Shown: positions 5,040 through 62,067 of the stretch, in pieces
How the letters are laid out: each line of letters starts with the position of its first letter
How positions within the stretch are numbered: the first letter of the stretch is position 1
NCBI GenBank assembly: GCA_947561395.2
Contig: OX387195.1
Span: forward strand, 4,849,828-4,913,827
Length of the DNA stretch: 64,000 nt
DNA from: Buxus sempervirens
Taxonomy: Eukaryota > Streptophyta > Magnoliopsida > Buxales > Buxaceae
Direction: 5' to 3'
The notes under the pieces: model-generated
Seen by the model: only the letters and a program-made list of their open reading frames with translations
Database searches by the model: none
Told to the model about the DNA's origin: nothing
Translations under genes and position numbers: made by a program

Positions 5040-5745
5040 CTTTATTCCACTAAATCCTTAGGATGTACCTAAGGCATACTAAGGGGTACCTTAGTGTTAT
5101 TTGAAGGGGTTTCTTGGTGTTTCAAGGGGTTTACCTTAGTCATTCAAGGGGTTATACTTTAGATATGCTTTGGGGGTGTTCCTTAGTTAACACAAAGGGG
5201 TACCTTAGTTGTAGAAGGGGTGTACCTTAGTTATACAAGGGGGTATCTTAATTATAGAAGGGGTGTACCTTAGTTATACAAGGGGGTACCTTAATTATAG
5301 AAGGGGTGTACTTTAGTTATATAAGGGGGGGTACTTTAGTTATATAAGGGGGGTACTTTAGTTAAAACAGAGGGGTACTTTAGGTATACAAGTGGGGTAC
5401 TTTAGGTATATAAGTGGGGTACCTTAGGCAATACAAGTGGGGTACCTTAGGTATACAAGTGAGGTACTTTAGGTATAATTAGGGGGTACTTTAAGTAATA
5501 CTTGGGTGGTACCTTGGGTAATACATAGGTGTACTTTGGGTAACACATGGGTGTACCTTAGGTATAGAAGTGGGGTACCTTGGGTATATTTGGGAGTTAC
5601 TTTAGATATTCTTAGGAGATACTTTAGGTACACTTGAGAGGTACCTGGGGTATTTTTAGGAGGTACTTTTGGTATACTTGGGAGGTATTTTGGTGTATAC
5701 ATGAAAGGGTGTACATTAGATTTACTTGGGGGTGTGCTCTAAGTG
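5040..5745. repeat. minisatellite, ~25-30 bp units (GGGGTACCTTAGTTATACAA type)
   Basis: More than 20 degenerate units of the form GGGGTACYTTAG plus TATACAAG or a variant, in head-to-tail order. It lies in the U3 part of the minus-strand LTR. The ORF on the complementary strand (5469-5702) is repeat-derived, not a gene. Confidence 0.85.
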
Positions 5746-44870: not shown

Positions 44871-46892
44871 TAATTTTCTTCTTTTTCTAATTTAATCCAC
44901 ATTCATTTCCTCCTCGTTGTTGCAAGCAATCCGGCTGGGTTGATCTAGTTGGGGGATATAGACGAGTTTCACTTGGAGAACGAGATTCCCAGCCTTCTGG
45001 TTGCATTAGAGTTCCTGTTAAACTAAAACACTTTCCCTTTATAATCACCAAACCGAGAGCCTAGCGTTATTATTTCCAGAAGAACCTTGCTTGTTGGCTC
45101 CCATTGAAGGACCTCTGCCTCTATCGGAGAACCGTCACAACACCTACAGGTATGCCTCTTCTTCTTTTTGTCTTATTGTGCAGCATTAACTGATCTAGTG
45201 TTCCTCCATGCCATTGTTTGATTTCAACTTGCCCAAAATACGATTGAAAGAGTGGTCTTTTTATAACCAAAACCGGATGATTTTATGGGGCGCTCAACAT
45301 GTTTCTGGGGGTTAAAGTCAACAAGTTGAGAATAACATAGAAGGAGAGACGAGAATCAAATTTCTACCACTACCCGAAGAACAAATTTACTTAGGTATTC
45401 AATGTGAATAGTGTCTCATCGGTATTCAAAAAGCCTCTTCCCGAAACCAAGTCCTTGAAGTAAATGGCATAGTCAAGATTTTCATTCAGGGTGGGCAAAG
45501 TAAACCTTTGAACTAAAATGATCATGATCGAAATAAATGTAATTTTCCTCTAATTGATCAAAGTTTTTTAGTTGATACACAACAACAACAAAAACCTTAA
45601 GTGCACCCGATTATTCTTTGTAGTTGAAACTAGAGCTTTTCTCTATTTTCTAACTCTTTTCTCTGACTATTAAATAGATGTAGAGAAACTGAGAATGCTT
45701 TGGCTATATTCCGATAATAAACAACACCCCATCAAACTCTTATAAGCTTGTCATTTGATGAACAGACCACATTAAGAAATGGCTTAGATAGACCAATTGT
45801 GAGAATTGAGAAAGTGGATGGGCAATTTAACAATTTTAGAGGGGGCAAAATTTATTTATACAAGTACACTTGTGACTATGTAGCTCCGCCCCTGCTTGAA
45901 GTAGTGATTGTTGAAGATCAGAGGCGTCGCATCGAGGTCTCCAATGACGTTCCCATCCTCGCCGAGCAGACACAACCGGTCTAGCTTCTCTCTCAATATA
46001 GGCTCGATTATGGAGTCAGGCCTTTAGTGCCAGACTGGTTATAGAGGCGGAAAAAAATCGAGAAATAGTGTCCCTCACGGACAGGGGCGGCTTAAAGGGG
46101 TAGGCCACTAAGGCCCCCCAACTATGAAGGACCCCCAGTAAGGCAAAATTTTTCCAAATTTTTTTTGGGAAAATTATGAAAAAGGGTCACTTTTTAAAAA
46201 TATTTATAAAAACAGTCCACTAAGATGCCGAATTGCAGAAAAGGGCCACTTTTCATTGATAATATAAAAAAAGACCATCGAAATTAAATTACAAGATCAC
46301 TTTTCAAAAATAATTAAATTTGAGGATCACTTTACTTGTACATGAGATGGGACGCAAACTTCTTACATGGGATACAAATTCATTTTACATGGGACACAAG
46401 TGCATTTTATGTGAGATATGAGCGCATCATATGTGGACACAAGCACATTTGGCTATAATAACATGGCGTTATTTTTAATTATTTTTAAAAAGCGACCCTT
46501 CAGGTAATTATTTTTTAGAAGTGGCCCTTTTCTGCAATTCGGCATCTTAGCGGACTATTTTTATAAATATTTTAAAAAGTAACCCTTTTTCATAATTTTC
46601 CCTTTTTTGTGGACCCCACCCCTCACTAAGGCTAAGAAGTAAGGCCCCCCATTGCTTTCTCTCTCTCATTTTTTTTATAGAAATTGATTATTTTCTTGCT
46701 AAATCTTTTTTTAAAAATGGAAAAGGGGGCATAGGGTTTCTATCTTTTGTGAAAAACGAAAGATCCATCTTCTCACACCTATCATCTCTTCTTATTTGCT
46801 TTTGAAATCAAAGAATGACATTGCTATTGAGTTTGCCTTTAGACCAATATTCGAGTGCACGTTACTGATTTACCGGAAGAAGTCTCCGACCG
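44871..46892. other. intergenic DNA with MITEs
   Basis: A possible untranslated exon ends CCTACAG/GTATGCC near 45150, but no coding exon is recognised. The stretch ending CTCCGCCCCTG (about 45890) and AGGGGCGGCTTA (46084) look like hAT-type termini. The ORF at 45748-45984 spans one of these and is unconvincing. Confidence 0.4.
46167..46602. mobile_element. MITE with ~90-bp terminal inverted repeats
   Basis: Begins GGGAAAATTATGAAAAAGGG and ends with the complement. Inner arms CCGAATTGCAGAAAAGGGCC and GGCCCTTTTCTGCAATTCGG are also inverted matches. The long inverted repeats suggest a Mutator-type MITE. The flanks are T-runs, so the target duplication is unclear. Confidence 0.75.
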
Positions 46893-47003
46893 TGTAAGAT
46901 CCCGGAATTTTGAGAAATTGTAATTAAGAGTAAATATATTAAATAAGAACAATTAGAGGAAAAAAAATTCAATTAAACCAGTTGGTTTAAAGGGCTTGGT
47001 TAG
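46893..47003 (+). mobile_element. start of an LTR split by the 47-62 kb element (left part)
   Basis: TGTAAGATCCCGG opens an LTR resembling the start of the family at 7788 read in reverse. It is cut after 111 bp by the next element and resumes at 62068. The last five bases, GTTAG (46999-47003), are the target site. Confidence 0.65.
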
Positions 47004-47452
47004 TGTAGACACCCCAAAATTGCACGATTTTTGATAAATCTTGAAGGAGAGAAATATTTTATTGGAATTTTCAATTCTTTGCATTGGGTTTGAGATACTT
47101 AACCTATTTGAATCCAAAACCGTAAAGGAAAAGGCCCGAATTCAATCTTTTGTGCAAAGTCAAACTTTTTCCGGTTGAATTTTGTTGACTTTTGACCTCA
47201 GAAAATGAAATATTTTTTTAAAGCCAGATTTCAAGATAATTTTTCCCGGTAATCAGGTTTTTAGCCATGTTATTGCATAAAAGAATTTTTTGAGATTTTA
47301 AATCTTGACGAATACCTTGGTTTTAACATATTGAACCTTTTTTCCAGACCTGAAAAATCGGAATTTTGCCTAGAACTGGAAAGTTGACTTTTTATTCACT
47401 TGGAATTTGGGTCTGGAACTATTTTTCATGGATTCAAATGGGGGGGTGTTTG

Positions 47453-47534
47453 CTTATTTACATGTAATATCTTAAGTAAATGGAGATTAAAAAATACGAG
47501 GACATTTACTTAAACGATATTACATGTAAATAAG
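47453..47534. repeat. large inverted repeat in U3 (30-bp arms)
   Basis: Arms 47453-47482 and 47503-47534 are complementary throughout, except for a 2-base insertion in the right arm. The loop is 20 bases. Repeated in the 3' LTR at about 59747-59828. A decayed homologue lies at 4119-4198. Confidence 0.9.
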
Positions 47535-47573
47535 TATTGCCTGTGTTAAAATTTGAAAAAAAGGCTTTTTTCC

Positions 47574-47717
47574 TTGTATCCGGCAACTCAGGCCGGATAC
47601 AAGTGTCCTTCTTTGTATCCGGTGGATAATGCCGGATACAAGTAGACCTCAGTGTATCCGGCATCATAGTCCGGATACATTAAGGTACTTGTGTATCCGG
47701 CCTGATATACCGGATAC
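47574..47717. promoter_or_regulatory. four GTATCCGG/CCGGATAC hairpins, 39-bp phased (5' LTR)
   Basis: Stems at 47574-47602, 47613-47641, 47653-47679 and 47693-47717 share the arm core GTATCCGG/CCGGATAC. The 9-base loops are all different: caactcagg, tggataatg, catcatagt, cctgatata. Loop centres are 47588, 47627, 47666 and 47705, exactly 39 bp apart. They lie about 170-300 bp upstream of the TATA box. They could be paired protein-binding half-sites or structural elements. Confidence 0.9.
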
Positions 47718-47884
47718 GCTAGTTTTGCTCAAAATTAGGGTTTTTCGAGAGCTTTTCACTTTTACCATCATATCCCTCATTAAATGAGGGGAAATCTCGG
47801 AAACAGCCTTAGGGTTAAGGTTGGTGGGCTATAGACCTTATGTTGTGTCTACCATTCTCACCAACCCTAACCCTAACCTTTGCC

Positions 47885-47892
47885 TATAAATA
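47885..47892 (+). promoter_or_regulatory. TATA box of the 5' LTR
   Basis: TATAAATA, followed by GGAGGC. Transcription would be expected to start about 30 bp downstream (near 47915). The same sequence is at 60179-60186 in the 3' LTR. Confidence 0.75.
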
Positions 47893-49769
47893 GGAGGCTC
47901 CTCCTTAAGCAAATGGCACACAACTCTTGTTTTGAATTCTCGCAAAGAAGAACTCCAAGAGAAGAAGAAAACCGCTGTGGAATCGCCTCCAGCACTCAGG
48001 TAAGCCTCAACTTTTCTTTTTATTTTCTGTCTTTACATTCCTAGATCTAGATCTCTTCTTCTACCTTTCTGTAGTGTAAAGCCTTGTTTGTATGTGTAGA
48101 AATCCTTCCCCGGCTCAAAGTATCTCAAGACTCCCCTAGCCGTAAAACGTGAAGGCGGATCTAGGAGAAACGAGACTGGGGATTGACCCTAGTGCTAGAA
48201 CCTATGTAGCATAAGGCCTTTTTGATTGATTGTAAACCGTTCCATATTCAAAGTACCCTTGATTATCTTAAAGAGAACAGAGGGAAACGATAATGGAACG
48301 GAACCCTAGGCTATGCTAGAACCTATTTTATTGAATCTATATGCATGTGTATGGATCTTGCTAGGTTTTTTTCACTTTTGCACAAATATCACTATTTTGG
48401 CGGGATAGGCTCATATTTGGGGTTTATTGCATTTATTGTGATAAATCTCAAATAAATGGCCTCAATCAATTCTGGAATGCCTTTCGGATGATTTTGAAGT
48501 ATTTGTGTTCATCTTACACGAATTTCATTTTTTATCAATTTTCGGATTTGGTTTTTACTCAAAAATGGCTTAGCTTGACAGCACCTGTACCCTTACTTCG
48601 GACGTCCGTAACTTCATCATCCGGATGAATTTTGGGGCGATTCTAGAACCATGGGAAAGGTGAGGCTGTCTAGTTTATGTCCACCAAATTTCATGAATTT
48701 CTATCTAACCGATTTTTGACACTTCTCTGTCGAAGTTAAGTGGACAGTTCAGGTCCAAGTACAGAACTTGTCACTTCGACGGACCGCCATGTGTTCGTTT
48801 TAAGTCCGATTCGAGTGGTTTTTATTTCTGAGTACTCCTTTTTGAGTCTATTTTCAAATCCAGTTGGTTTCATAATTTTTGGATTCCATTTGAATTATTG
48901 GTAGCCGATTTACTCAGAACTGCTCATTTGCATTTTTCTGGGTAAATCTGTGATCTTCGGGGCCTGTTCGGGAGACCACCCAAGGCACGTCCGAAGGGAT
49001 TTTTGTATGAGGCTAGTTTCTCTGGAAAGATGGCCATACAGACTTCAATCACACCAAATTTCGTGGACTTTTGTGTAGTGGATTTTTCTAGACAATTTTC
49101 CAAAGTTGCCCACTTACCACTTTTAAAAATCCCCAACAGCAACTTCAAAGGAGCATAACTCCTAGATTTTTCATCGGAATGAAGTGAAATTTTGCACGAG
49201 ACTCTTATTTACCCTAATCTTTCAAATGGATTTGGTTTGGGTCAATTTAGAATTGGATTTGAATGATTTCAAGGCAAATGGCATACTTTTTACCAAATTT
49301 TCCGGATTTGATTTAACTTGGTTTTGAGCAACTTGTGCTTTGATTTCCATCTTTTGAGATATTCCAGAAATGATATTGACATGAGAGAGGATCTAAAATC
49401 CATTTAGATCTTCATGTGAAAATATCATACATTAGTCTTTTTTCAAGATTTTCTATGATTTTAGCAAGCTTTCCATTTTTTTTTGCATGAACATACACTT
49501 GGCAACCACTTCGTGTGGATGAATTGGGGTGCCTAACACCTTCCCCCGTTCATAATCTAATCCCCTTACCCATCTCTGGATTTTATTTTCAAGTAGGGTT
49601 ATTTTTACCCTAGAATTTGTCTTTTGGCTATTTTTGCTTATTTTTTGAATCTTTGGTGTCCATTCTCACCCCAAAATCATGAATGGTGGCGACTCTCCCA
49701 TTATTGCGTTGAGCCCGTGTGTTGACGGAGGGACGATCACTCCGGTGATTTTTTCCCATGTCTCACAAC

Positions 49770-49788
49770 TGGCGACTCTGCTGGGGAC
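49770..49788 (+). promoter_or_regulatory. primer binding site
   Basis: TGGCGACTCTGCTGGGGAC lies two bases inside the 5' LTR end. This sequence is what I expect for Tat/Ogre elements (reported as tRNA-Arg primed); the tRNA assignment is from memory. Confidence 0.75.
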
Positions 49789-51240
49789 TTGTGGATTTAA
49801 GCCTTTTTTGTATGTTCATGCTTTTTCTTTACTTTTTGAATGCTTGCTATTTTGTTTACTTTATTTGTGTATATTCTTGTATTTCAAATCAGATTGGGAT
49901 GCTTTTGAATTTTATATGGATCAAGTCATGTATGTTTTGATTGATGTTGCCTAGAGATTGATTTAGGAGAAGCCTATCCTGAAGCATGATTTTGATGCAT
50001 TTGGTGATAACATGCTCTAATTTGGATTTTGAATACCATGGTTTGAACATGAGAATTAGAAGCATGAAATCTAGGAGTTCAGAATTTTTGGGGTATTCAA
50101 ACATGATTCCCATAAAGCATGCTTTTTGTGCTTAAAAATTTTTGTTATGCTATGCCTTTGATTTGGGGTATAGGGGGATTTGATTTGAGCATGAAAACCA
50201 AGAGCATGAAATCTGGAATTTTAGTGCACATTGTAGATTTTTTTAGCATGTTCACCAATATAGCATGTCAAGTAGTTGCTAAACTTTTAGGCATTAATTT
50301 GGGGTATAAGGAATGCACTTTTGAGCATGAAAATTCTGGAAATTTCAGTGTATATTTGGGGGATTTCAAGCATGTTTTACCTCATTGAAACACTTTGGTA
50401 TCATGTCAAGTAGTGCTAAAATTTTAGGCTCCAATTTGGGTAGAAATGGTACACTTTGAGCATGAAAAAGAGCATGAAATCTGGAATTCTAGGAATGCTT
50501 TTGGGTTTCAAGCATGCTTACATGAGTTGATTGTTGTTTGCACAAATAACATGTTTTGTATACCACTTTTTGGGCATGTAATATTTTTGTGCATATTTGG
50601 TGCTTGCTTGCTTGTATTTAGCTTCATTATTTTGACATATATGCCTTGGCTTGAAATTGAATGCATGGCTACGAAAAAGAGTGGCAAGGGGCTGGGACGT
50701 TATGAATGTTACCACAATTTTAAAATTGCACTTGAGCACTTGAAACAATTTGCACAGCCTACCCTTTACCTATTAGGAAGTTGAACCATGAATGTGTGTA
50801 GCTTGGCGCACCGAGGTCGTGACTTCGGAAAGTGAAAGTGAAAACATTTACCTTAGAATTTGGGACAATGATGTGATGACAATGGGATCTGTGATTCGAT
50901 TCCGGGCATCATTAGACTTGAGTTCTAAGTTGCCAATTAAGCCAAAACCCAAAAACCATACGCTTGAAGGTGGAGAAACACGTTTTTGGCTAAAAGCACA
51001 CAATTGCGTTTGGGGAAATTGGGTGTAAATGTGGGAAGGCCGTTTGCATGTTTTACAGGCCAAGGTATAATGTGAATACCATATTAAATGAATGTAATAC
51101 AAGGTGGCAAGGTAAAACCATGTTCTTTTCATGAATTTGGGGATTTTGCAAATATAATATCCAAGCCCAATTTGGGGCAAGTTTTGAAGGTCAAATTAAG
51201 GTGAACATCAATTGGGAATGAAAATAAATCAAATCTGGTG
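49789..51240 (+). other. non-coding leader, degenerate GCATGAAATCTGG repeats
   Basis: From about 49.95 to 50.55 kb, loosely repeated blocks contain GAGCATGAAAA, AGCATGAAATCTGGAATT and AAGCATG, spaced 130-190 bp. Ogre elements often have an extra ORF here. None is intact, and the short ORFs at 49679-51028 show no domain. Confidence 0.55.
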
Positions 51241-51272
51241 AAAAAATGAGTCAAAAAGGGCTATTTCGGCAA

Positions 51273-51411
51273 TAACCGGCAACTCAGGCCGGTTAATAAT
51301 AACTGTGTTCATATCCGGTACATATATCCGGATACAAAGACATATGCGCATATCCGGATAGATTGACCGGATACAATAAGGCATATCTTATCCGGTATAT
51401 TATACCGGATA
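51273..51411. repeat. second set of four phased hairpins (internal)
   Basis: Stems at 51273-51295, 51312-51334, 51351-51373 and 51389-51411 with 9-base loops and centres 39, 39 and 38 bp apart. The first loop, caactcagg, is identical to the first loop in the LTR. Its stem has changed on both sides (TAACCGG/CCGGTTA instead of TATCCGG/CCGGATA). The other three loops differ from the LTR ones. Confidence 0.88.
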
Positions 51412-51720
51412 CATTCAAAAAAGGGCACAAATTGGCTGTTCAGCCCAAATTTTCAGAATAAAATGCCTAAAACACTGTGGATAATCCTTAGGCACCCCGA
51501 AAAGAACATAAGAAATTTTCCCAAAAATGCAGAATCAAAGAAAAAAAAAACAAGAAAAAGAATAAAATAAAATATTCTTTCAGGATTTAACCTAAGTTTG
51601 AAAATCAAAGAGGAAACCAAGGTGTCATATTTTTTGACACCAACTCAACTCAAACATATGTCAATCCAGCTTTAGAACTTGAAAATCTTCTAAAATGCAT
51701 CAGATTTCAAATAAAAAAAA

Positions 51721-53096
51721 ATGAAAACCTTGGTTGGTTATTTTTATCAATCAAATCAAAAAAAGTGGGACACTTGGAAGCCCTAGAATATTCCATGAAA
51801 ACCTTGGTTGGTTATTTTTATCAATCAAATCAAAAAAAAATGAAAACCTTGGTTGGTTATTTTTATCAATCAAATCAAAAAAAGTGGGACACTTGGAAGC
51901 CCTAGAATATTCCATGAAAACCTTGGTTGGTTATTTTTATCAATCAAATCAAAAAAAGTGGGATACTTGGAAGCCCTAGAATATTCCAAGACACCTTGGT
52001 TGGTTATTTTTATCAATCAAATAAAAAAAAGTGGGATACTTGGAAGCCCTAGAATATTCCAAGACACCTTTGGTTGGTTATTTTTATCAATCAAATCAAA
52101 GCATTTGTGGGATACTTAGAAGCCCTAGAATATTCCAAGACACCTTTGGTTGGTTATTTTTATCAATCAAATCAAAACATTTGTGGGATACTTGGATAGA
52201 ATATTCCAAGACACCTTTGGTTGGTTATTTTTATCAATCAAATCAAAACATTTGTGGGACACGTGGAAGCCCTAGAATATTCCATGAAAACCTTGGTTGG
52301 TTATTTTTATCAATCAAATCAAAAAAAATTGGGACCCTTGGAAGCCCTAGAATATTCCATGAAAACCTTGGTTGGTTATTTTTATCAATCAAATCAAAAA
52401 AAAAAAAAATGGGGACCCTTGGAAGCCCGAGAATATTCCATGAAAACCTTGGTTGGTTATTTTTATCAATCAAATCAAAAAAAATTGGGACCCTTGGAAG
52501 CCCTAGAATATTCCATGAAAACCTTGGTTGGTTATTTTTATCAATCAAATCAAAAAAAAAAATTTTTTTTGGGACCCTTGGAAGCCCTAGAATATTCCAT
52601 GAAAACCTTGGTTGGTTATTTTTATCAATCAAATAAAAAAGATTGGGACCCTTGGAGCCCTAGAATATTCCATGAAAACCTTGGTTGGTTATTTTTATCA
52701 ATCAAATCAAAAAAAAATTGGGACCCTTGGAAGCCCTAGAATATTCCATGAAAACCTTGGTTGGTTATTTTTATCAATCAAATCAAAACAAATTGGGACC
52801 CTTGGAAGCCCTAGAATATTCCATGAAAACCTTGGTTGGTTATTTTTATCAATCAAATCAAAAAAAAAAATTGGGACCCTTGGAAGCCCTAGAATATTCC
52901 ATGAAAACCTTGGTTGGTTATTTTTATCAATCAAATCAAAAAAAAATTGGGACCCTTGGAAGCCCTAGAATATTCCATGAAAACCTTGGTTGGTTATTTT
53001 TATCAATCAAATCAAAAAAAATTGGGACCTCTGGAAGCCCTAAAATATTCCATGAACCCTTGGTTGGTCTTCTTTTTACCAATCAAATCAAAAAAT
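51721..53096. repeat. tandem array 1, ~19 units of ~72-85 bp
   Basis: Units contain CCTTGGTTGGTTATTTTTAT and CAATCAAATC, a variable A-run, GGGACCCTTGGAAGCCCTAG and AATATTCC. Length varies mostly by the A-run. TTGGAA and TTCC(A/C) can pair across GCCCTAGAATA. Several units have CTTGGAA/TTCCAAG, a full 7-bp stem. The long ORFs on both strands here (e.g. 52031-52636) are artefacts of the repeat. Confidence 0.95.
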
Positions 53097-54040
53097 TGTA
53101 GGCCATTTGAAAGCCTCTGAATTTCAAACATCAAACTTTTTTTGGGCCGTCTAAAAGCCTCTGAATTTTAGACACATTTTTTTGGGCCATTTGAAAGCCT
53201 CTGAATTTCAAACATCAACCTATTTTGGGCCATCTATAAGCCTCTGAATTATAGACACATATCCTTTGGGCCATCTAAAAGCCTCTGAATTTTAGAAACA
53301 ACCTTTTTGGGCCATTTGAAAGCCTCTGAATTTCAAACATCAACCTGTTTTGGGCCGTCTATAAGCCTCTGAATTATAGACACATATCCTTTGGGCCATC
53401 TAAAAGCCTGTGAATTTTAGAAACAACCTTTTTGGGCCATTTGAAAGCCTCTGAATTTCAAACATCAACCTATTTTGGGCCATCTATAAGCCTCTGAATT
53501 ATAGACACATATCCTTTGGGCCATCTAAAAGCCTCTGAATTTTAGACACATATCCTTTGGGCCGTCTATAAGCCTCTGAATTATAGACACATATCCTTTG
53601 GGCCGTCTATAAGCCTCTAAATTACAGACATACAACCTTTGGGCCATCTAAAAGCCTCTGAATTTTAGACACATATCCTTTGGGCCGTCTATAAGCCTCT
53701 GAATTATAGACACATATTCTCTGGGCCGTCTATAAGCCTCTGAATTATAGACATATATCCTTTGGGCCATTTAAAAGCCTCTGAATTTTAGACACATATC
53801 CTCTGGGCCGTCTATAAGCCTCTGAATTATAGACATATATCCTTTGGGCCATCTAAAGGCCTCTGAATTTTAGACACAACCTTTTTGGGCCGTCTATAAG
53901 CCTCTGAATTTTAGACACAACTTTTTTGGGCCGTCTATAAGCCTCTGAATTATAGACATGTATCCTTTGGGCCGTCTAAAAGCCTCTGAATTTTAGACAT
54001 TGCTCATTCTTTGGGACCTTTGGAAGCCCTAAAATATTCC
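53097..54040. repeat. tandem array 2, 22 hairpin units of ~41 bp
   Basis: Each unit is GGGCC(A/G), a left arm, the loop GCCTCTGAA, a right arm, and a CACATATCCTTT-like linker. Arms come in three matched pairs: TTTGAAA/TTTCAAA (4 units), TCTAAAA/TTTTAGA (6) and TCTATAA/TTATAGA (8). Four units are imperfect, two of them only by G-T wobble. The first 11 units run in a three-unit order repeated three times. A final unit (54018-54042) is intermediate with array 1. Confidence 0.93.
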
Positions 54041-54248
54041 AACAATAAAAAAAAAAACAAAACAAAAAATGGAAAAATATAAAAAAAAAAACAAATAAAT
54101 CCGGACTTGTGTTCACCTAACCCACTTATCTACATTTATAGGTGTGTGACTCAGATTAAATGGGAGCTGACATGTTTCTTTGCTTTTCCTTACTCAGGTA
54201 CACTTATTTGCAATCATTGCTCCCGTGACCAGATCCAAAGCCAGAGCT

Positions 54249-56312
54249 ATGAACACTGAAGAGAATCAAGCCCAAGCCACCGTACCCGCTCAAGACTTTG
54301 CTCAGCTGCAGGAGCAAGTGGCTGGTCTGGCCAAGATGCTTGGAGACCTACTGGTGGCTCAGGCCCAACAGGCCCAGGCCCAAAACCAAGCATCGACTTC
54401 CCATCAAGCACCACCACCTCAGGCCTACATTCCGCCTCCGGCTCAACCCATGCCTGAGCCCATTTCTGAACCAGTCCCTGAACCCATTCTGATCAGGGAA
54501 AATACAGCAGAATCCGAGAAAGAACTGGAGAAGGAAAAAGCCAGGGAAGAAACTGAAAGGAAAATGCTGCTCAGGATAGAAAGGATCCAGGAAGAACTGA
54601 AAGAGGTGAAAGGGGGAAATAGCTATGGAGGCACCACTTTCGAGGATCTGTGCATGTATCCTGACGTATGTCTACCGGCCAAGTTCAAGTACCCGGACTT
54701 TGACAAGTTCGACGGCACAGGCTGCCCTATGAGCCACTTAAAATTATACTGCGGGGCTTTGTGCCAGTTTGGCCGGGATGACGGCATATTGATCCAACTC
54801 TTTCAGAGGAGTTTGACAGGATCGGCTCTTAGGTGGTTCGCCACAGTTGATCATGGGAAGATTAGAGGATGGAAGGACTTGGCAGACACCTTCTTAGACC
54901 AATACAAATTTAACTCGGAGATCGTGCCAGACCGGTACGACATTATAAGGATGAGCAAGGGCAAAGATGAATCTGTGCGGCAATATGCCAAGAGGTGGAG
55001 AGAGGCTGCCTCTCAGGTCAGGCCACCTATGCAGGAATCGGAAATGATTTCAACATTCATGGGCACACTGGGGCAGCCCTTCTACAACCATTTGGTGGGT
55101 CAGATCACCACCAATTTTGCAGCCCTGGTGCAGGTGGCAGACCGGATTGAGGATGGGATCAAATCTGGCAAGATAATTGATTATTCCGCCTTGGTCAGTC
55201 AACAAGACTCCATTCATAACAAGGGAAATGGAAATGGAAAGAAAAAATCTGAGGAAAGGAGAGAAGCAGAAGTGAATATGGTGCAGCTTCCCAAGGGACC
55301 CGTTCAAATCAATGCCCATCCAGTTCCTTTGCTGCCTATCCAAATTAATGTCCCCTCTGCACAGCCTGTGAAGGAGGAAACAGAAGTAAGGAAGAGAAGG
55401 GAGTTTTCAAAACTGCCTATGAGACCATCTGAACTTTTGCCTACCCTACTTGAAAAGGGTTATGTGACTTTGAGGTTGCCAAATCCTCATGCAAGCAAGG
55501 GGAAGGGTTATGATCCATCTACAATCTGTGAGTATCATATGAGCACTCCAGGGCATACCACAGATCGTTGCTTGGCCCTAAAGCATGCAATTCAGGATTT
55601 GCTGGATAATAACTCTTTATCATTCAATTCAGTCACACCCACTCCTCCTCCCACCAGCAACAATGGGGCAAGCAGCTCAAATGCAATAGGGTCAATTTTT
55701 TCAGGAAAAAGAAGATTTGACCCTTCTCAACTTATTGCTCCGGTTGGTACCACAGTCCAGGTTTATTTTGAAAAAGAAGATGAAGGGGGCCATGTGGAGA
55801 AAGAGACTCAAACAGGGGCAGATTTTAAGTCGAAGGTGAAAGAAAATGAAATGACAGGTGAAAGGGCAAAGGAGGTGCAAACAATTCCATTTGAGCAGTT
55901 TGGGCAAACAAATGGCTTAGCACGGGATGTTGAACAAGAATTCAGTATGGATGATAATGATTGTCTGAAGGGTATGGAATCACTCTTCATACAAGAAGAA
56001 AATGAAGCAGAGGCAATTGAAACAGGAGAATCCCAGGAAAAGAAAGAAGAAGAATCAAAAGAAAAGATTGAGGTCAGGTTTAAGCTGCCATTGATTGATT
56101 GGGCTGCTATCCAGATTCCATATCAAGGAATGCCATTTCTTTCAGAGACTGAGCATAATGCCCCAGGGAAGGAGATCATCCCAAATCATGAAGGTTTGCC
56201 TCACTCAGTAGGAGAAAGATATTTTCTAAAAAAGAAAGAAGAGTCAACTTTTTTCTTGGAGAACGGGGGCAATTCTCGAATTCCCATGTTCTCTGAAAAG
56301 AAACCCCCATAA
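54249..56312 (+). CDS. Gag of the Tat/Ogre-type element
   Basis: A 687-residue ORF from the ATG at 54249. The open frame extends 23 codons upstream without an ATG, across the predicted splice acceptor at 54197, so this ATG is the likely start. Residues ~1-80 are Gln/Ala-rich (LQEQVAGLAKMLGDLLVAQ, probable coiled coil), then Pro-rich and a charged helix (~95-135). Residues ~150-310 are the retrotransposon gag core: GTGCPMSHLKLYC, FQRSLTGSALRWF, TWKD-like GWKDLADTFLDQYKFN, FMGTLGQPFYNHLVGQ. At ~425 comes CEYHMSTPGHTTDRC, the modified zinc knuckle of this lineage, followed by LKHAIQDLLDN. The C-terminus (~490-687) is acidic and poorly conserved. Gag would package the element's RNA. The frame is fully intact, in line with the young LTRs. 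The ORF ends with no protease fused. Confidence 0.92.
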   Translation: MNTEENQAQATVPAQDFAQLQEQVAGLAKMLGDLLVAQAQQAQAQNQASTSHQAPPPQAYIPPPAQPMPEPISEPVPEPILIRENTAESEKELEKEKAREETERKMLLRIERIQEELKEVKGGNSYGGTTFEDLCMYPDVCLPAKFKYPDFDKFDGTGCPMSHLKLYCGALCQFGRDDGILIQLFQRSLTGSALRWFATVDHGKIRGWKDLADTFLDQYKFNSEIVPDRYDIIRMSKGKDESVRQYAKRWREAASQVRPPMQESEMISTFMGTLGQPFYNHLVGQITTNFAALVQVADRIEDGIKSGKIIDYSALVSQQDSIHNKGNGNGKKKSEERREAEVNMVQLPKGPVQINAHPVPLLPIQINVPSAQPVKEETEVRKRREFSKLPMRPSELLPTLLEKGYVTLRLPNPHASKGKGYDPSTICEYHMSTPGHTTDRCLALKHAIQDLLDNNSLSFNSVTPTPPPTSNNGASSSNAIGSIFSGKRRFDPSQLIAPVGTTVQVYFEKEDEGGHVEKETQTGADFKSKVKENEMTGERAKEVQTIPFEQFGQTNGLARDVEQEFSMDDNDCLKGMESLFIQEENEAEAIETGESQEKKEEESKEKIEVRFKLPLIDWAAIQIPYQGMPFLSETEHNAPGKEIIPNHEGLPHSVGERYFLKKKEESTFFLENGGNSRIPMFSEKKPP

Positions 56313-59284
56313 GGAGAATGCACATTTCCTGAGGACTCTAAGGAGCCTTGTTCTCAGGAAGTGATTTCAATAAAGGCTCTTTCAAAAGCAAATAAAAAAA
56401 AAAAGTTTTTTTCCCTTTAACATTTTTCTAAAAAAAAAAAAAGAAAAAAAAGTTTTCAATAAGGTCCTGTTTTACTTATGAGTCATATCTCCTATTGAAT
56501 TTCATTAAGTTGAATATGACTTCGACATTGGGCTCAATTTTGAGACCAAAATCGAAGAAAAAGACATTTTATATGAAAATTCAAATCTTTTTCAGTGTCA
56601 TGAGAAGAATATTCTGCAAAATTATGAAGTGACCAATTTTATGGCCTTTGGAACCAAAGATGACCCACAGTCTTCAACAGAAAGATAGAAGAAGATTTAA
56701 AGTTTCTTCATTAGAATACAGAAAGGATCGCATCACTTGCTGATTCGTTCAAAGGGAAGTTGATAATATTGTTTGAAGAAATTTTGGAGCTTTGCACTTG
56801 AAAATATGGGAGAAGATTTGACCTTTTCGTTGGAAATAGAATTGGGCATCATCTGATAGAAAGAATCCAAATTCATAAGATTGATCACAAGGTGAAGAAC
56901 TTGTTCATAACAGAGGTTCTATTTGAAGAGGCTTTTATCTTGACAGAAGTTGAAAAAAAAAAAAAAAAAAAGAAAAAAAAAGAGGAAAGAAGGAAAAATC
57001 CTGAGCCAGTCATGTAGTGCAACTCTACCAAGTCTGAAAATTCAAACTTTTCTTAAAATGATTAGAGGCCTTTCTTTCTTATATCCCCAAAATTTTTTGA
57101 AAACCCTAGTTAGACCCTTTGAGCTTGATAAATTTTTCAAAGTAACCTAAATTGAGAATTGTAACCCCACACTGGGGCAAATTTATTAAGGCAAAAAAAA
57201 AAAAAAAAAAAGGAATGAAGGGACAAATTTTTTTTTTTAAAACAAAAGAAGGGGGCATTATTGAAGTTCAAAAGGGATTTTGAAGATGTTTTATGAAAAG
57301 GGAGCAAAGCAAAAAAAAAGAGGAAGAAAGAAGGAAAAGAGATCATCAAATGTTATGGGATAAATAAAAATTGTGAAGGGAAGAATGAGAAAAAAAGATC
57401 AATACTGGGGAATAAGTTTCAAATGAAGAAATCACCATGGAGGAAGAACTTCATTACTAGGGGGCAATTTTGTATTCATTCTAAGGGAAGAAATGCCTTA
57501 AAAATTGCAATTTCAGTTAACCCATTAGATCATATGGTATTTGAGCCTTTTATTCCTTTTCTTTCTAAACAAACACAAGCCTTCGTTTCGTCCCATCCAT
57601 AAGTCCTCTTTGATTAAGAAATTTTGAATTAAGGCGGTTTCGACTACATAGTTGCTGGTGATGAAGGATTAAAAAAAAAAAAAAAAAGAAAGGAAGAAAA
57701 AATGGAGAAAATGTAGTGAAAACCCAGAAAGGCGCTACATGGCAAATAATCAGCTATCTATAAGAAGGAAATTGTCAGAGAGAAAAGTCCAGAATTGGCA
57801 TAAATCCAGGTGAAATCCTCAGGCTAGTGGTTATTTTTCACTCTTCAAGTGATTGAGGAAAGTCTTCTTTTCAAGATTGAAGCAAACATAATTAGAGCTA
57901 TGGTATAAAGCATTTGTGAACAAGTTGATGGCCATCAAAATTGCCATTAGGAAATTATTGCGGAAGTTGAAGTCATAAATTCTCATATCATGGATACAAT
58001 GGAGAAACAATTGCTCTTCAATTGGATGAAGGAAAATGTCTTTCTAGACTGGGGCAAAATAGTCAGATTGAAAGAGTCGGCATATCTGGAGCATCAATTG
58101 ACAAGCCGATGGTCATGGGAATGATTCTAAAGGTTCTGAAGGCTTATTTCGGTCTTTCTTCATTTTCTGAAATAATCTTCTCATTATTCAACTTGATTTT
58201 AATTCTTTTGGACTATATGCTAATAAATGATTGGATCATTTTTTAAAATAAAAAAAAGCACAAAAAAGCAAAAAATATATTTTTGGCCTATGATGAGCAT
58301 CTATGTCTTTTTCATAAAAACATTGGTTTTGCAAGCATTGGAGAATTCTGAGGCCACTAGTATAAAACCTATTTTTGTATTTGCATTCCTTTATAAGGGT
58401 TTCTTTTTGCAAAGGTTAAAAAAAGAAGAAAGAGAAAAAGAGAAAAAAAGAAAAAAAAAAGGAAAAAAAAAGAGGATCATCTCTGCTGAGGGGCAAATAC
58501 TACTTCAAGCAATCAAAACTGGGGCATGCTCAGCGCCTTTCCCTCTGGGTTTTCATTGGAATAAATTACAGCATCTGGAAGAAGCAGTCAGGCTTTAGTC
58601 TTTGGATTTGAAAAAAGAAGCTTCGAAGCAGTTGCATGTTTTCTTCTTTAAACAAAGGTTTCCAATTCTGAAGAAGGATTTTACTGGAGCAGTAAGAAGG
58701 CATGAATGAGAGGTCATGGGTTGTAAGGGCATGAGGTTAGATCAACATATCATAATTTTCAAATCCATCAATCAAGAAGAGGCATTCACTTGGGCAGTTG
58801 AAAAGAATGAAGGAAGGCTATGGGTAGCAATGGCTCATACATCCTTATTGAGAGAGCAAGAAGATGAAAAAGCAAAAGCAAGTTGCAGAATATTCAAGCA
58901 CAGGTTTGGGCATCAAATGGCACCCAGGTAAATCAAATAAGAAAATCAATCAGGAAAATTCAATAAAATATTTCCTTCCTTATTGTTGAAAAACATCAAA
59001 AGCAATTGAGTTTGCAGTGGTCAAGTTTAAATCCACATTCTTTTCAAAATTTGCTTGTCTCAGATTTCTTTTCATAGCCACGAGAGCTCAAAGAAATCTG
59101 AGATAAGGAAGAGACGCCACCCCGTCAGACTATACACAGCAGGGGTTTCATTGGCTATCTTCAAATCCATGTTTTTTATCACTCATTTGTTTGACCAAAG
59201 GAAGTTCAATTAATGAGGTGTCTTTCAAACGTGCAATTTTGAGTTGTGTCTATTCTTTGCTGTTCATTGTACTACAACTCCAGC
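56313..59284 (+). other. non-coding 3' region replacing pol
   Basis: Searched in all frames for protease, RT, RNase H and integrase motifs; none seen. Instead there are A- and GA-runs (56390, 56430, 56950, 57195, 57670, 58430) and recurrent ACTGGGGCAAA-like words (57170, 58050, 58515). Such words are typical of the spacer before the 3' LTR in this lineage. Pol therefore seems to have been lost cleanly. The ORFs at 58022-58931 are not recognised. Confidence 0.7.
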
Positions 59285-59297
59285 AAAGAGGGGCAGC
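59285..59297 (+). promoter_or_regulatory. polypurine tract
   Basis: AAAGAGGGGCAGC directly before the 3' LTR; the expected plus-strand priming site. Confidence 0.8.
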
Positions 59298-62062
59298 TGT
59301 AGACACCCCAAAATTGCACGATTTTTGATAAATCTTGAAGGAGAGAAATATTTTATTGGAATTTTCAATTCTTTGCATTGGGTTTGAGATACTTAACCTA
59401 TTTGAATCCAAAACCGTAAAGGAAAAGGCCCGAATTCAATCTTTTGTGCAAAGTCAAACTTTTTCCGGTTGAATTTTGTTGACTTTTGACCTCAGAAAAT
59501 GAAATATTTTTTTAAAGCCAGATTTCAAGATAATTTTTCCCGGTAATCAGGTTTTTAGCCATGTTATTGCATAAAAGAATTTTTTGAGATTTTAAATCTT
59601 GACGAATACCTTGGTTTTAACATATTGAACCTTTTTTCCAGACCTGAAAAATCGGAATTTTGCCTAGAACTGGAAAGTTGACTTTTTATTCACTTGGAAT
59701 TTGGGTCTGGAACTATTTTTCATGGATTCAAATGGGGGGGTGTTTGCTTATTTACATGTAATATCTTAAGTAAATGGAGATTAAAAAATACGAGGACATT
59801 TACTTAAACGATATTACATGTAAATAAGTATTGCCTGTGTTAAAATTTGAAAAAAAGGCTTTTTTCCTTGTATCCGGCAACTCAGGCCGGATACAAGTGT
59901 CCTTCTTTGTATCCGGTGGATAATGCCGGATACAAGTAGACCTCAGTGTATCCGGCATCATAGTCCGGATACATTAAGGTACTTGTGTATCCGGCCTGAT
60001 ATACCGGATACGCTAGTTTTGCTCAAAATTAGGGTTTTTCGAGAGCTTTTCACTTTTACCATCATATCCCTCATTAAATGAGGGGAAATCTCGGAAACAG
60101 CCTTAGGGTTAAGGTTGGTGGGCTATAGACCTTATGTTGTGTCTACCATTCTCACCAACCCTAACCCTAACCTTTGCCTATAAATAGGAGGCTCCTCCTT
60201 AAGCAAATGGCACACAACTCTTGTTTTGAATTCTCGCAAAGAAGAACTCCAAGAGAAGAAGAAAACCGCTGTGGAATCGCCTCCAGCACTCAGGTAAGCC
60301 TCAACTTTTCTTTTTATTTTCTGTCTTTACATTCCTAGATCTAGATCTCTTCTTCTACCTTTCTGTAGTGTAAAGCCTTGTTTGTATGTGTAGAAATCCT
60401 TCCCCGGCTCAAAGTATCTCAAGACTCCCCTAGCCGTAAAACGTGAAGGCGGATCTAGGAGAAACGAGACTGGGGATTGACCCTAGTGCTAGAACCTATG
60501 TAGCATAAGGCCTTTTTGATTGATTGTAAACCGTTCCATATTCAAAGTACCCTTGATTATCTTAAAGAGAACAGAGGGAAACGATAATGGAACGGAACCC
60601 TAGGCTATGCTAGAACCTATTTTATTGAATCTATATGCATGTGTATGGATCTTGCTAGGTTTTTTTCACTTTTGCACAAATATCACTATTTTGGCGGGAT
60701 AGGCTCATATTTGGGGTTTATTGCATTTATTGTGATAAATCTCAAATAAATGGCCTCAATCAATTCTGGAATGCCTTTCGGATGATTTTGAAGTATTTGT
60801 GTTCATCTTACACGAATTTCATTTTTTATCAATTTTCGGATTTGGTTTTTACTCAAAAATGGCTTAGCTTGACAGCACCTGTACCCTTACTTCGGACGTC
60901 CGTAACTTCATCATCCGGATGAATTTTGGGGCGATTCCAGAACCATGGGAAAGGTGAGGCTGTCTAGTTTATGTCCACCAAATTTCATGAATTTCTATCT
61001 AGCCGATTTTTGACACTTCTCTGTCGAAGTTAAGTGGACAGTTCAGGTCCAAGTACAGAACTTGTCACTTCGATGGACCGCCATGTGTTCGTTTTAAGTC
61101 CGATTCGAGTGGTTTTTATTTCTGAGTACTCCTTTTTGAGTCTATTTTCAAATCCAGTTGGTTTCATAATTTTTGGATTCCATTTGAATTATTGGTAGCC
61201 GATTTACTCAGAACTGCTCATTTGCATTTTTCTGGGTAAATCTGTGATCTTCGGGGCCTGTTCGGGAGACCACCCAAGGCACGTCCGAAGGGATTTTTGT
61301 ATGAGGCTAGTTTCTCTGGAAAGATGGCCATACAGACTTCAATCACACCAAATTTCGTGGACTTTTGTGTAGTGGATTTTTCTAGACAATTTTCCAAAGT
61401 TGCCCACTTACCACTTTTAAAAATCCCCAACAGCAACTTCAAAGGAGCATAACTCCTAGATTTTTCATCGGAATGAAGTGAAATTTTGCACGAGACTCTT
61501 ATTTACCCTAATCTTTCAAATGGATTTGGTTTGGGTCAATTTAGAATTGGATTTGAATGATTTCAAGGCAAATGGCATACTTTTTACCAAATTTTCCGGA
61601 TTTGATTTAACTTGGTTTTGAGCAACTTGTGCTTTGATTTCCATCTTTTGAGATATTCCAGAAATGATATTGACATGAGAGAGGATCTAAAATCCATTTA
61701 GATCTTCATGTGAAAATATCATACATTAGTCTTTTTTCAAGATTTTCTATGATTTTAGCAAGCTTTCCATTTTTTTTTTGCATGAACATACACTTGGCAA
61801 CCACTTCGTGTGGATGAATTGGGGTGCCTAACACCTTCCCCCGTTCATAATCTAATCCCCTTACCCATCTCTGGATTTTATTTTCAAGTAGGGTTATTTT
61901 TACCCTAGAATTTGTCTTTTGGCTATTTTTGCTTATTTTTTGAATCTTTGGTGTCCATTCTCACCCCAAAATCATGAATGGTGGCGACTCTCCCATTATT
62001 GCGTTGAGCCCGTGTGTTGACGGAGGGACGATCACTCCGGTGATTTTTTCCCATGTCTCACA
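59298..62062 (+). mobile_element. 3' LTR, 2765 bp
   Basis: By eye, identical to the 5' LTR except for transitions at about 60937 (T to C), 61003 (A to G) and 61075 (C to T) and one extra T in the run near 61775. It carries the same hairpins, TATA box (60179) and splice donor (near 60294). Confidence 0.93.
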
Positions 62063-62067
62063 GTTAG

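Follow-up and report, generated by a model that had tools for sequence, protein, structure and literature searches.

The 64,000-nucleotide stretch of Buxus sempervirens contig OX387195.1 that we analysed, hereafter the window, contains a gag-only LTR retrotransposon whose leader carries a tandem array of short hairpins sharing a common loop. Hairpin arrays stand at the same place, upstream of gag, in related families, the stem arms change in pairs across these families, and splice-site sequences at both ends of the leader are kept between copies. The explanation that we favour, tentatively and at short of an even chance, is that the array serves as a multi-copy stem-loop signal on the genomic RNA, perhaps one bound by Gag for packaging.

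The element occupies positions 47004–62062 (15,059 bp; Table 1), and its paired LTRs, TG...CA ends, GTTAG target duplication (46999–47003 and 62063–62067) and gag domain identify it as an LTR retrotransposon. Because the two LTRs are nearly identical, the element is probably young. The gag product contains the motif CX2HX5HX4C at residues 427–441, which we take to be zinc-knuckle-like, and the ten gag relatives found were plant proteins throughout. No pol domain was detected, and the region 46000–61500 contains no frame longer than 123 aa besides gag and the frames of the 76-bp array. Between gag and the 3' LTR the longest stop-to-stop frame is 123 aa, two small frames scanned against Pfam gave no match above the cut-off, and TRF identified only A-rich repeats. 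Tandem arrays between pol and the 3' LTR, a trait of Tat/Ogre elements, were not found in this element, as it has no pol and its arrays precede gag; we presume a place in the Tat/Ogre lineage from gag and architecture only. The original prediction of an otherwise minimal element was therefore correct as to the gag-only content and incorrect as to size, given the total length and the ~2.76-kb LTRs. Elsewhere in the window, a 22-bp tandem array is found at 5123–5701.

Table 1. Positions in the window of the features of the element (the slash in splice motifs marks the junction).
Feature	Position	Strand	Basis or remark
5' LTR (TG...CA)	47004..49767	+	99.855% identity to the 3' LTR over 2765 aligned columns, self-BLAST
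TATA box TATAAATA	47885..47892	+	read directly; retained in L092 and L093
Predicted 5' splice site CAG/GTAAG, within LTR	47997..48004	+	motif in 2/3 copies compared
Putative primer binding site, just 3' of LTR	49770..49790	+	read directly
76-bp tandem array	51840..53095	+	TRF; directly precedes the 41-bp array; two inverted repeats per unit
41-bp tandem hairpin array, 22 units, loop GCCTCTGAA, three arm pairs	53101..53999	+	TRF and unit listing
3'-flanking hairpin TTGGAA-GCCCTAAAATA-TTCCAA	54020..54042	+	in seven aligned copies, both subfamilies
Predicted 3' splice site (pyrimidine-rich stretch, CTCAG/G)	54180..54197	+	~50 nt before the gag ATG
gag, 687 aa, PF03732 (E 3.5e-11)	54249..56312	+
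3' LTR	59298..62062	+	each LTR ~2.76 kb

The leader is predicted to form a 6.2-kb intron. The motif of the candidate 5' splice site lies 112 nt after the TATA box; in L092, a copy of a sister subfamily, both are retained at a distance of 102 nt, and L093 reads CAA/GTAAG at the splice-site position. Before gag, a pyrimidine-rich stretch with CAG/GTAC is found in both the window's subfamily and this sister subfamily, and is invariant in a seven-copy alignment. A pattern search identified CAGGTA before gag at 72 of 81 loci, the other nine falling outside the pattern, and in pairwise alignment the AG occupies the homologous place in 52 of the 81; the other 29 are sister-subfamily copies in which the AG has slid past their 3-nt insertion. 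The implied intron (48000–54197, 6,198 nt) contains 110 ATGs, no further ATG intervenes between it and that of gag, and one ATG lies near the putative start site. Since the arrays lie within the predicted intron, gag mRNA would lack them and genomic RNA would retain them, so that the array would mark the unspliced genomic form.

The 22 units of the 41-bp array have loops starting at 53113 to 53982, spaced 40–44 bp apart, and the array ends 250 bp upstream of the gag ATG. An additional loop row at 53027 was assigned to the adjoining 76-bp array and is counted outside the 22 units. As originally described, 18 of the 22 stems form seven Watson-Crick pairs in three arm sequences (TTTGAAA/TTTCAAA, TCTAAAA/TTTTAGA and TCTATAA/TTATAGA), and two of the four imperfect stems differ by a G.T wobble only (at 53777 and 53859, one each), the remaining two having A.C (53613) and T.T (53900). 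The eighth pair reported for some units is likewise present, with G before and C after the arms in 10 of the 22; these positions are A/C in another 10 and A/A in two. The loop, which had been called the same throughout, is GCCTCTGAA in 20 of the 22 units, the exceptions being GCCTGTGAA at 53406 and GCCTCTAAA at 53613. Across the 676.5-Mb genome GCCTCTGAA occurs 17,099 + 17,097 times versus 989 + 947 for the word read backwards, an excess that argues for a genome-wide repeat over chance. Both at 53113–53990 and in L012–L041, the order of the unit types is partly periodic (C-B-A, B-A-A).

With the stretch following the array as query, 2,126 first-look candidates were recovered from the 676.5-Mb genome; the sister subfamily, whose gag is 73% identical, gave 2,351 first-look candidates, which may overlap the 2,126. 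For each subfamily the best 40 candidates were scored and 30 cut out, and the remaining 20 of the 80 were fetched too; these sets include near-identical members (e.g., L044–L047, and L060–L063 with L071), and L012 and L042 duplicate the window and L010. The copies L044–L047 (G000:C10:18202177-18232234) lie 9.88–9.89 kb apart on one strand, as if arranged head to tail. The three arm pairs of the window account for 613 of 662 units in 33 arrays, whereas a fourth, type D (TCTGAAA/TTTCAGA), is the commonest in the sister subfamily (361 of 820 units). Intact pairs of types A, B, C and D were present at 40, 40, 36 and 0 of 41 loci in the window's subfamily and at 38, 38, 4 and 40 of 41 in the sister subfamily. 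Both subfamilies thus hold the A and B arm pairs, although the non-coding stretch adjoining the array is identical at only 127 of 186 positions between the window and L010 and gag at 73%, which speaks for a signal. The number of units per fetched stretch ranges from 0 to 50, and a few copies lack the array or nearly so (no A–D unit in the fetched stretch of L077, two in L089 and three in L032), which counts against a signal common to all copies.

Recent changes within the two subfamilies were assessed at 82 loci with 2,158 units, of which 1,931 lay no more than two changes from types A–D and were analysed; the 227 left out were mostly hairpins of the 76-bp array and the flank. Canonical stems made up 1,751 of the 1,931, and none of the 159 distinct non-canonical units carried a compensated change. 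The absence of compensation among these units suggests that the paired arms in both subfamilies are old types spread by duplication. Covariation within the window's subfamily and its sister is thus thin, and the outcome named at the start as contrary to it, arm types merely spread by duplication, is nearly what we find here. The array could accordingly comprise a few old types, paired because of an origin by inverted duplication and dispersed by duplication, recombination and transposition, with pairing no longer kept. In line with this, the types are common to many copies, and stems joining the arms of two types exist, 84 genome-wide having B on the left and A on the right and 26 the reverse arrangement; some of these may be point changes. 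We consider this explanation unlikely, although it is the alternative we take most seriously. It does not readily account for the roughly ten paired base changes by which arms within one loop family differ, for the paired variation in two other hairpin kinds (both described below), or for the same pairs occurring in both subfamilies beside such dissimilar flanks, unless recombination exchanged arrays.

Evidence that pairing is kept over longer distances came from more divergent leaders. A gag relative from Tetracentron (P0002, 40% identical to the window's gag) used as query gave 12,449 candidate places, of which 48 were scored and five leader pieces read (L094–L098). Hairpin arrays were present upstream of gag in all five: L095 carries D units, L094, L096 and L097 have another common architecture, and L098 is mixed. 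These leaders contain related GCC-type loops flanked by other, paired arms. Located by loop word, the arms comprise TTCTAAA/TTTAGAA, CTGGAA/TTCCAG, CTTGGAA/TTCCAAG, CTTGAAA/TTTCAAG, CCTGAAA/TTTCAGG, TAAGGAA/TTCCTTA and TCTAGAA/TTCTAGA, together with A-, B- and D-like pairs.

For seven leaders (L094–L098, the window and L042), we collected 42 distinct loop-anchored arm pairs, of which 34 have at least six of seven Watson-Crick pairs, compared with a mean of 8.9 and a maximum of 18 in 5,000 permutations of the arms that ignore descent. The mean was 5.95 of 7 Watson-Crick pairs versus 4.40 when permuted (maximum 4.93 of 5,000). The loop words were derived from hairpins first found as inverted repeats in the same loci, so this anchoring was not blind; array bounds were set by hand, and a loop hit was dropped if another started no more than 13 nt downstream of it. 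Where A follows GCCTGAA, the loop was taken to be 8 nt long, a rule chosen after inspection of the listed arms. A repeat run gave 34/42 (permuted mean 8.8, maximum 19), and 33/43 (8.3, 19) without the 8-nt-loop rule; the corresponding values for the four distant leaders alone were 20/24 (5.1, 12) and 18/24 (4.3, 11). In a wider set that retained chance hits outside the arrays, 0.816 of positions 1–7 were paired versus 0.644 when permuted (maximum 0.7045), and 30 of 73 arm pairs had six perfect pairs. Nine distinct fully paired 6-bp arms are connected by about ten paired base changes in a minimum spanning tree, two of which possibly reflect a register shift. Subject to these limits of anchoring and descent, the leaders display the repeated stem-loops with a common loop and paired stem changes that are expected of a packaging signal. 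The original prediction that pairing itself is kept is thus supported by the distant leaders and finds little support within the window's own subfamily and its sister.

Paired variation extends to other hairpin kinds. A second kind, with loop [AG]CTTTTA, has the arms CTAAGG/CCTTAG, CTACAG/CTGTAG and CTATGG/CCATAG; of 13 hits to this loop, three are chance matches without paired arms. The units of the 76-bp array contain GGTTGGT-TATTTTT-ATCAATC, with two G.U pairs, and inverted repeats of the TTGGAA-GCCCTAGAATA-TTCCA type. A third kind has the loop CTTTTTCGT or a similar one. Of its ten distant copies, nine have G-C at two positions of the stem and the tenth (L097 at 833) has A-U there; the 76-bp array of the window has G.U at these positions, plausibly an intermediate. 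Against this, nine of the ten distant copies have one mismatch elsewhere in the stem, and the fully paired GGTTGGT/ACCAACC form was not seen. Inverted repeats with a CCGG core and differing arms, GTATCCGG/CCGGATAC and TAACCGG/CCGGTTA, occur in the LTRs (47573–47700 and 59867–59994) and in the leader (51273–51411), and may also covary. For all kinds together, inverted repeats of at least 8 bp number eight in 47004–51700 versus a shuffled mean of 1.15 (maximum 5 of 20). A longer imperfect foldback, TTATTTACATGTAATATC...GATATTACATGTAAATAA, was spotted by eye in the LTR at 47450–47540.

Paired changes could also arise by mutation. Template switching, or quasipalindrome correction, during DNA replication or reverse transcription would make and repair stems, with pairing as an unselected by-product. 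For RNA genes, PMC8794818 describes how one template switch can alter both arms and keep the loop, and some of the old changes consist of paired transversions (from A-U to U-A in type B, and in the TAAGGAA arm) that would need a poorly tolerated intermediate. Recent changes in both subfamilies bear no such mark, as none of the 159 non-canonical units is compensated and no inverted loop was found beside 1,852 forward ones with A–D-like arms. The process would also leave the likeness of the loops unexplained. This option, proposed at the outset, is weakened as a consequence; frequent correction is unsupported, and the process may have contributed to the old changes. As an account of the array we rank it as unlikely, behind the spread of old types.

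Folding predictions gave no support for selection on the sense RNA, and strand comparisons gave mixed indications. The 944-nt stretch folded whole showed no unusual energy (z -0.47 for the sense and +1.04 for the antisense strand, 20 shuffles each). Single hairpins are predicted to be weak (-3.0 to -9.0 kcal/mol), and for type C, folded within 37 nt, the prediction does not include its own hairpin. Of seven hairpin strings tested, five are predicted to be more stable on the antisense strand. If pairing in the transcript matters, U.G should be tolerated better than its mirror C.A, the near-palindromic context otherwise equalising the two. Two genome-wide mirror counts agree with this expectation: U.G exceeds C.A in A-type units (95 versus 53; by locus 90 versus 50, p 0.0009), and U.U exceeds A.A (84 versus 26; by locus 64 versus 25, p 4e-5). 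Two others, for D-type units, are slightly against it, with G.U 761 versus A.C 879 (p 0.004 in the opposite direction if all are independent) and U.G 693 versus C.A 778. These D-type counts are of individual occurrences without collapsing by locus, and D-type units are more abundant than those giving the counts in favour. At two stem positions of D-type units the sense-strand G-to-A change exceeds the mirror C-to-T by 12–16%, and at one position of A-type units the order is reversed; the D-type excess could reflect a mutational strand bias in copies undergoing decay, a background over which the A-type excess is conspicuous. Among the 159 distinct non-canonical units G.T outnumbers A.C 52 to 35 (p 0.086), and with the genome-wide mirror counts in conflict we dropped this comparison as proof of sense-RNA selection.

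An RNA structure might alternatively serve splicing, export or translation, the row of hairpins tuning the amount of gag mRNA or letting ribosomes bypass the ATG-rich leader. The array ends ~200 nt upstream of the predicted 3' splice site, the unspliced leader has its 110 ATGs, and PMC5902531 describes control of translation by long structured leaders in plant pararetroviruses. Such roles would not obviously need one common loop sequence, nor would they lead one to expect a unit number as variable as that seen here, and we consider them rather improbable. Least probable by far are inverted repeats acting at the DNA level, as binding sites of a dimeric protein or seeds of recombination or satellites: PMC2829016 describes non-coding palindromic repeated motifs with a CGG-CCG core in Sireviruses and this element has CCGG hairpins in its LTR, but for a dimer that binds DNA one would expect conserved half-sites and not, as here, changing half-sites around a conserved spacer.

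Many copies combine a kept loop with arms that are exchangeable yet paired, which is more in keeping with a stem-loop bound by a protein than with a passive repeat or a palindrome for DNA binding. In the stem-loop signal that we favour, the loop (GCC...GAA in the window's array) would be the recognised part, and the stem would be kept as a stem, its arms free to change if they change together. The leader would be spliced out from the 5' splice site in the LTR to the 3' splice site before gag; Gag would be made from the spliced RNA, and the hairpins would remain only on unspliced genomic RNA. The row of like loops would then mark the genomic RNA, most simply for Gag binding and packaging or dimerisation. 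Gag, with its zinc-knuckle-like motif, is the natural candidate reader, which makes marking for packaging or dimerisation our best guess; judged from sequence, packaging, dimerisation or Gag binding is a plausible role. A bolder version, which we find doubtful, is a distributed packaging code: this superfamily would tag its unspliced genomic RNA with tens of loop-coded hairpins in the leader intron, the loop being the word that Gag reads. The stem types would diversify pairwise, and their alternation might help each arm to pair with its own partner and not with its neighbour's.

Among known elements, those of the Tat lineage (Ogre, Retand) carry tandem repeats between the coding region and the 3' LTR according to PMC7004042 and PMC11963269. 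The present element is similar in its Ty3/gypsy-type gag (PF03732), large internal region and family-specific variable tandem arrays, and differs in having the array between the LTR and gag and in building it of hairpins. The main text of PMC7004042, PMC11963269 and PMC3305785, a further paper on such repeats, contains neither "hairpin" nor "secondary structure", and "palindrom" occurs there 0, 2 and 0 times, at least once in the title of a reference. The matches listed in a literature search (titles and the beginnings of abstracts, mostly without subscription papers) included no paper on hairpin arrays in retrotransposon leaders. Sireviruses, plant LTR retrotransposons as well, likewise have dyad-symmetric motifs repeated in their non-coding regions; these palindromes are located next to env and, within the 3' LTR, upstream of the TATA box (PMC2829016). 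The CCGG-core LTR hairpins found here resemble them, but the Sirevirus motifs are without the GCC...GAA loop of our array. In the plant element BARE, Gag comes from a spliced RNA and a different RNA is packaged, and the authors of that work describe the packaged RNA of elements other than BARE as fairly little known (PMC3735527). Splicing in BARE takes out 104 nt where gag ends, whereas the intron predicted here spans the leader.

Little is known of how plant LTR retrotransposons distinguish RNA to be packaged from RNA to be translated. The apparent thousands of copies, judged by the two sets of first-look candidates that may overlap, would provide natural hairpin variants for comparative tests of binding and packaging, and because copies can be dated by their LTRs, they could help to separate selection for RNA pairing from template-switch mutation. 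The packaging signals of retroviruses lie downstream of the major splice donor and upstream of gag, on unspliced RNA, and are bound by Gag. The array shares with them stem-loops with common loops upstream of gag, and its confinement to unspliced RNA is predicted. Gag binding, putative here, is established for the retroviral signals, which consist of a few hairpins where the present element carries tens.
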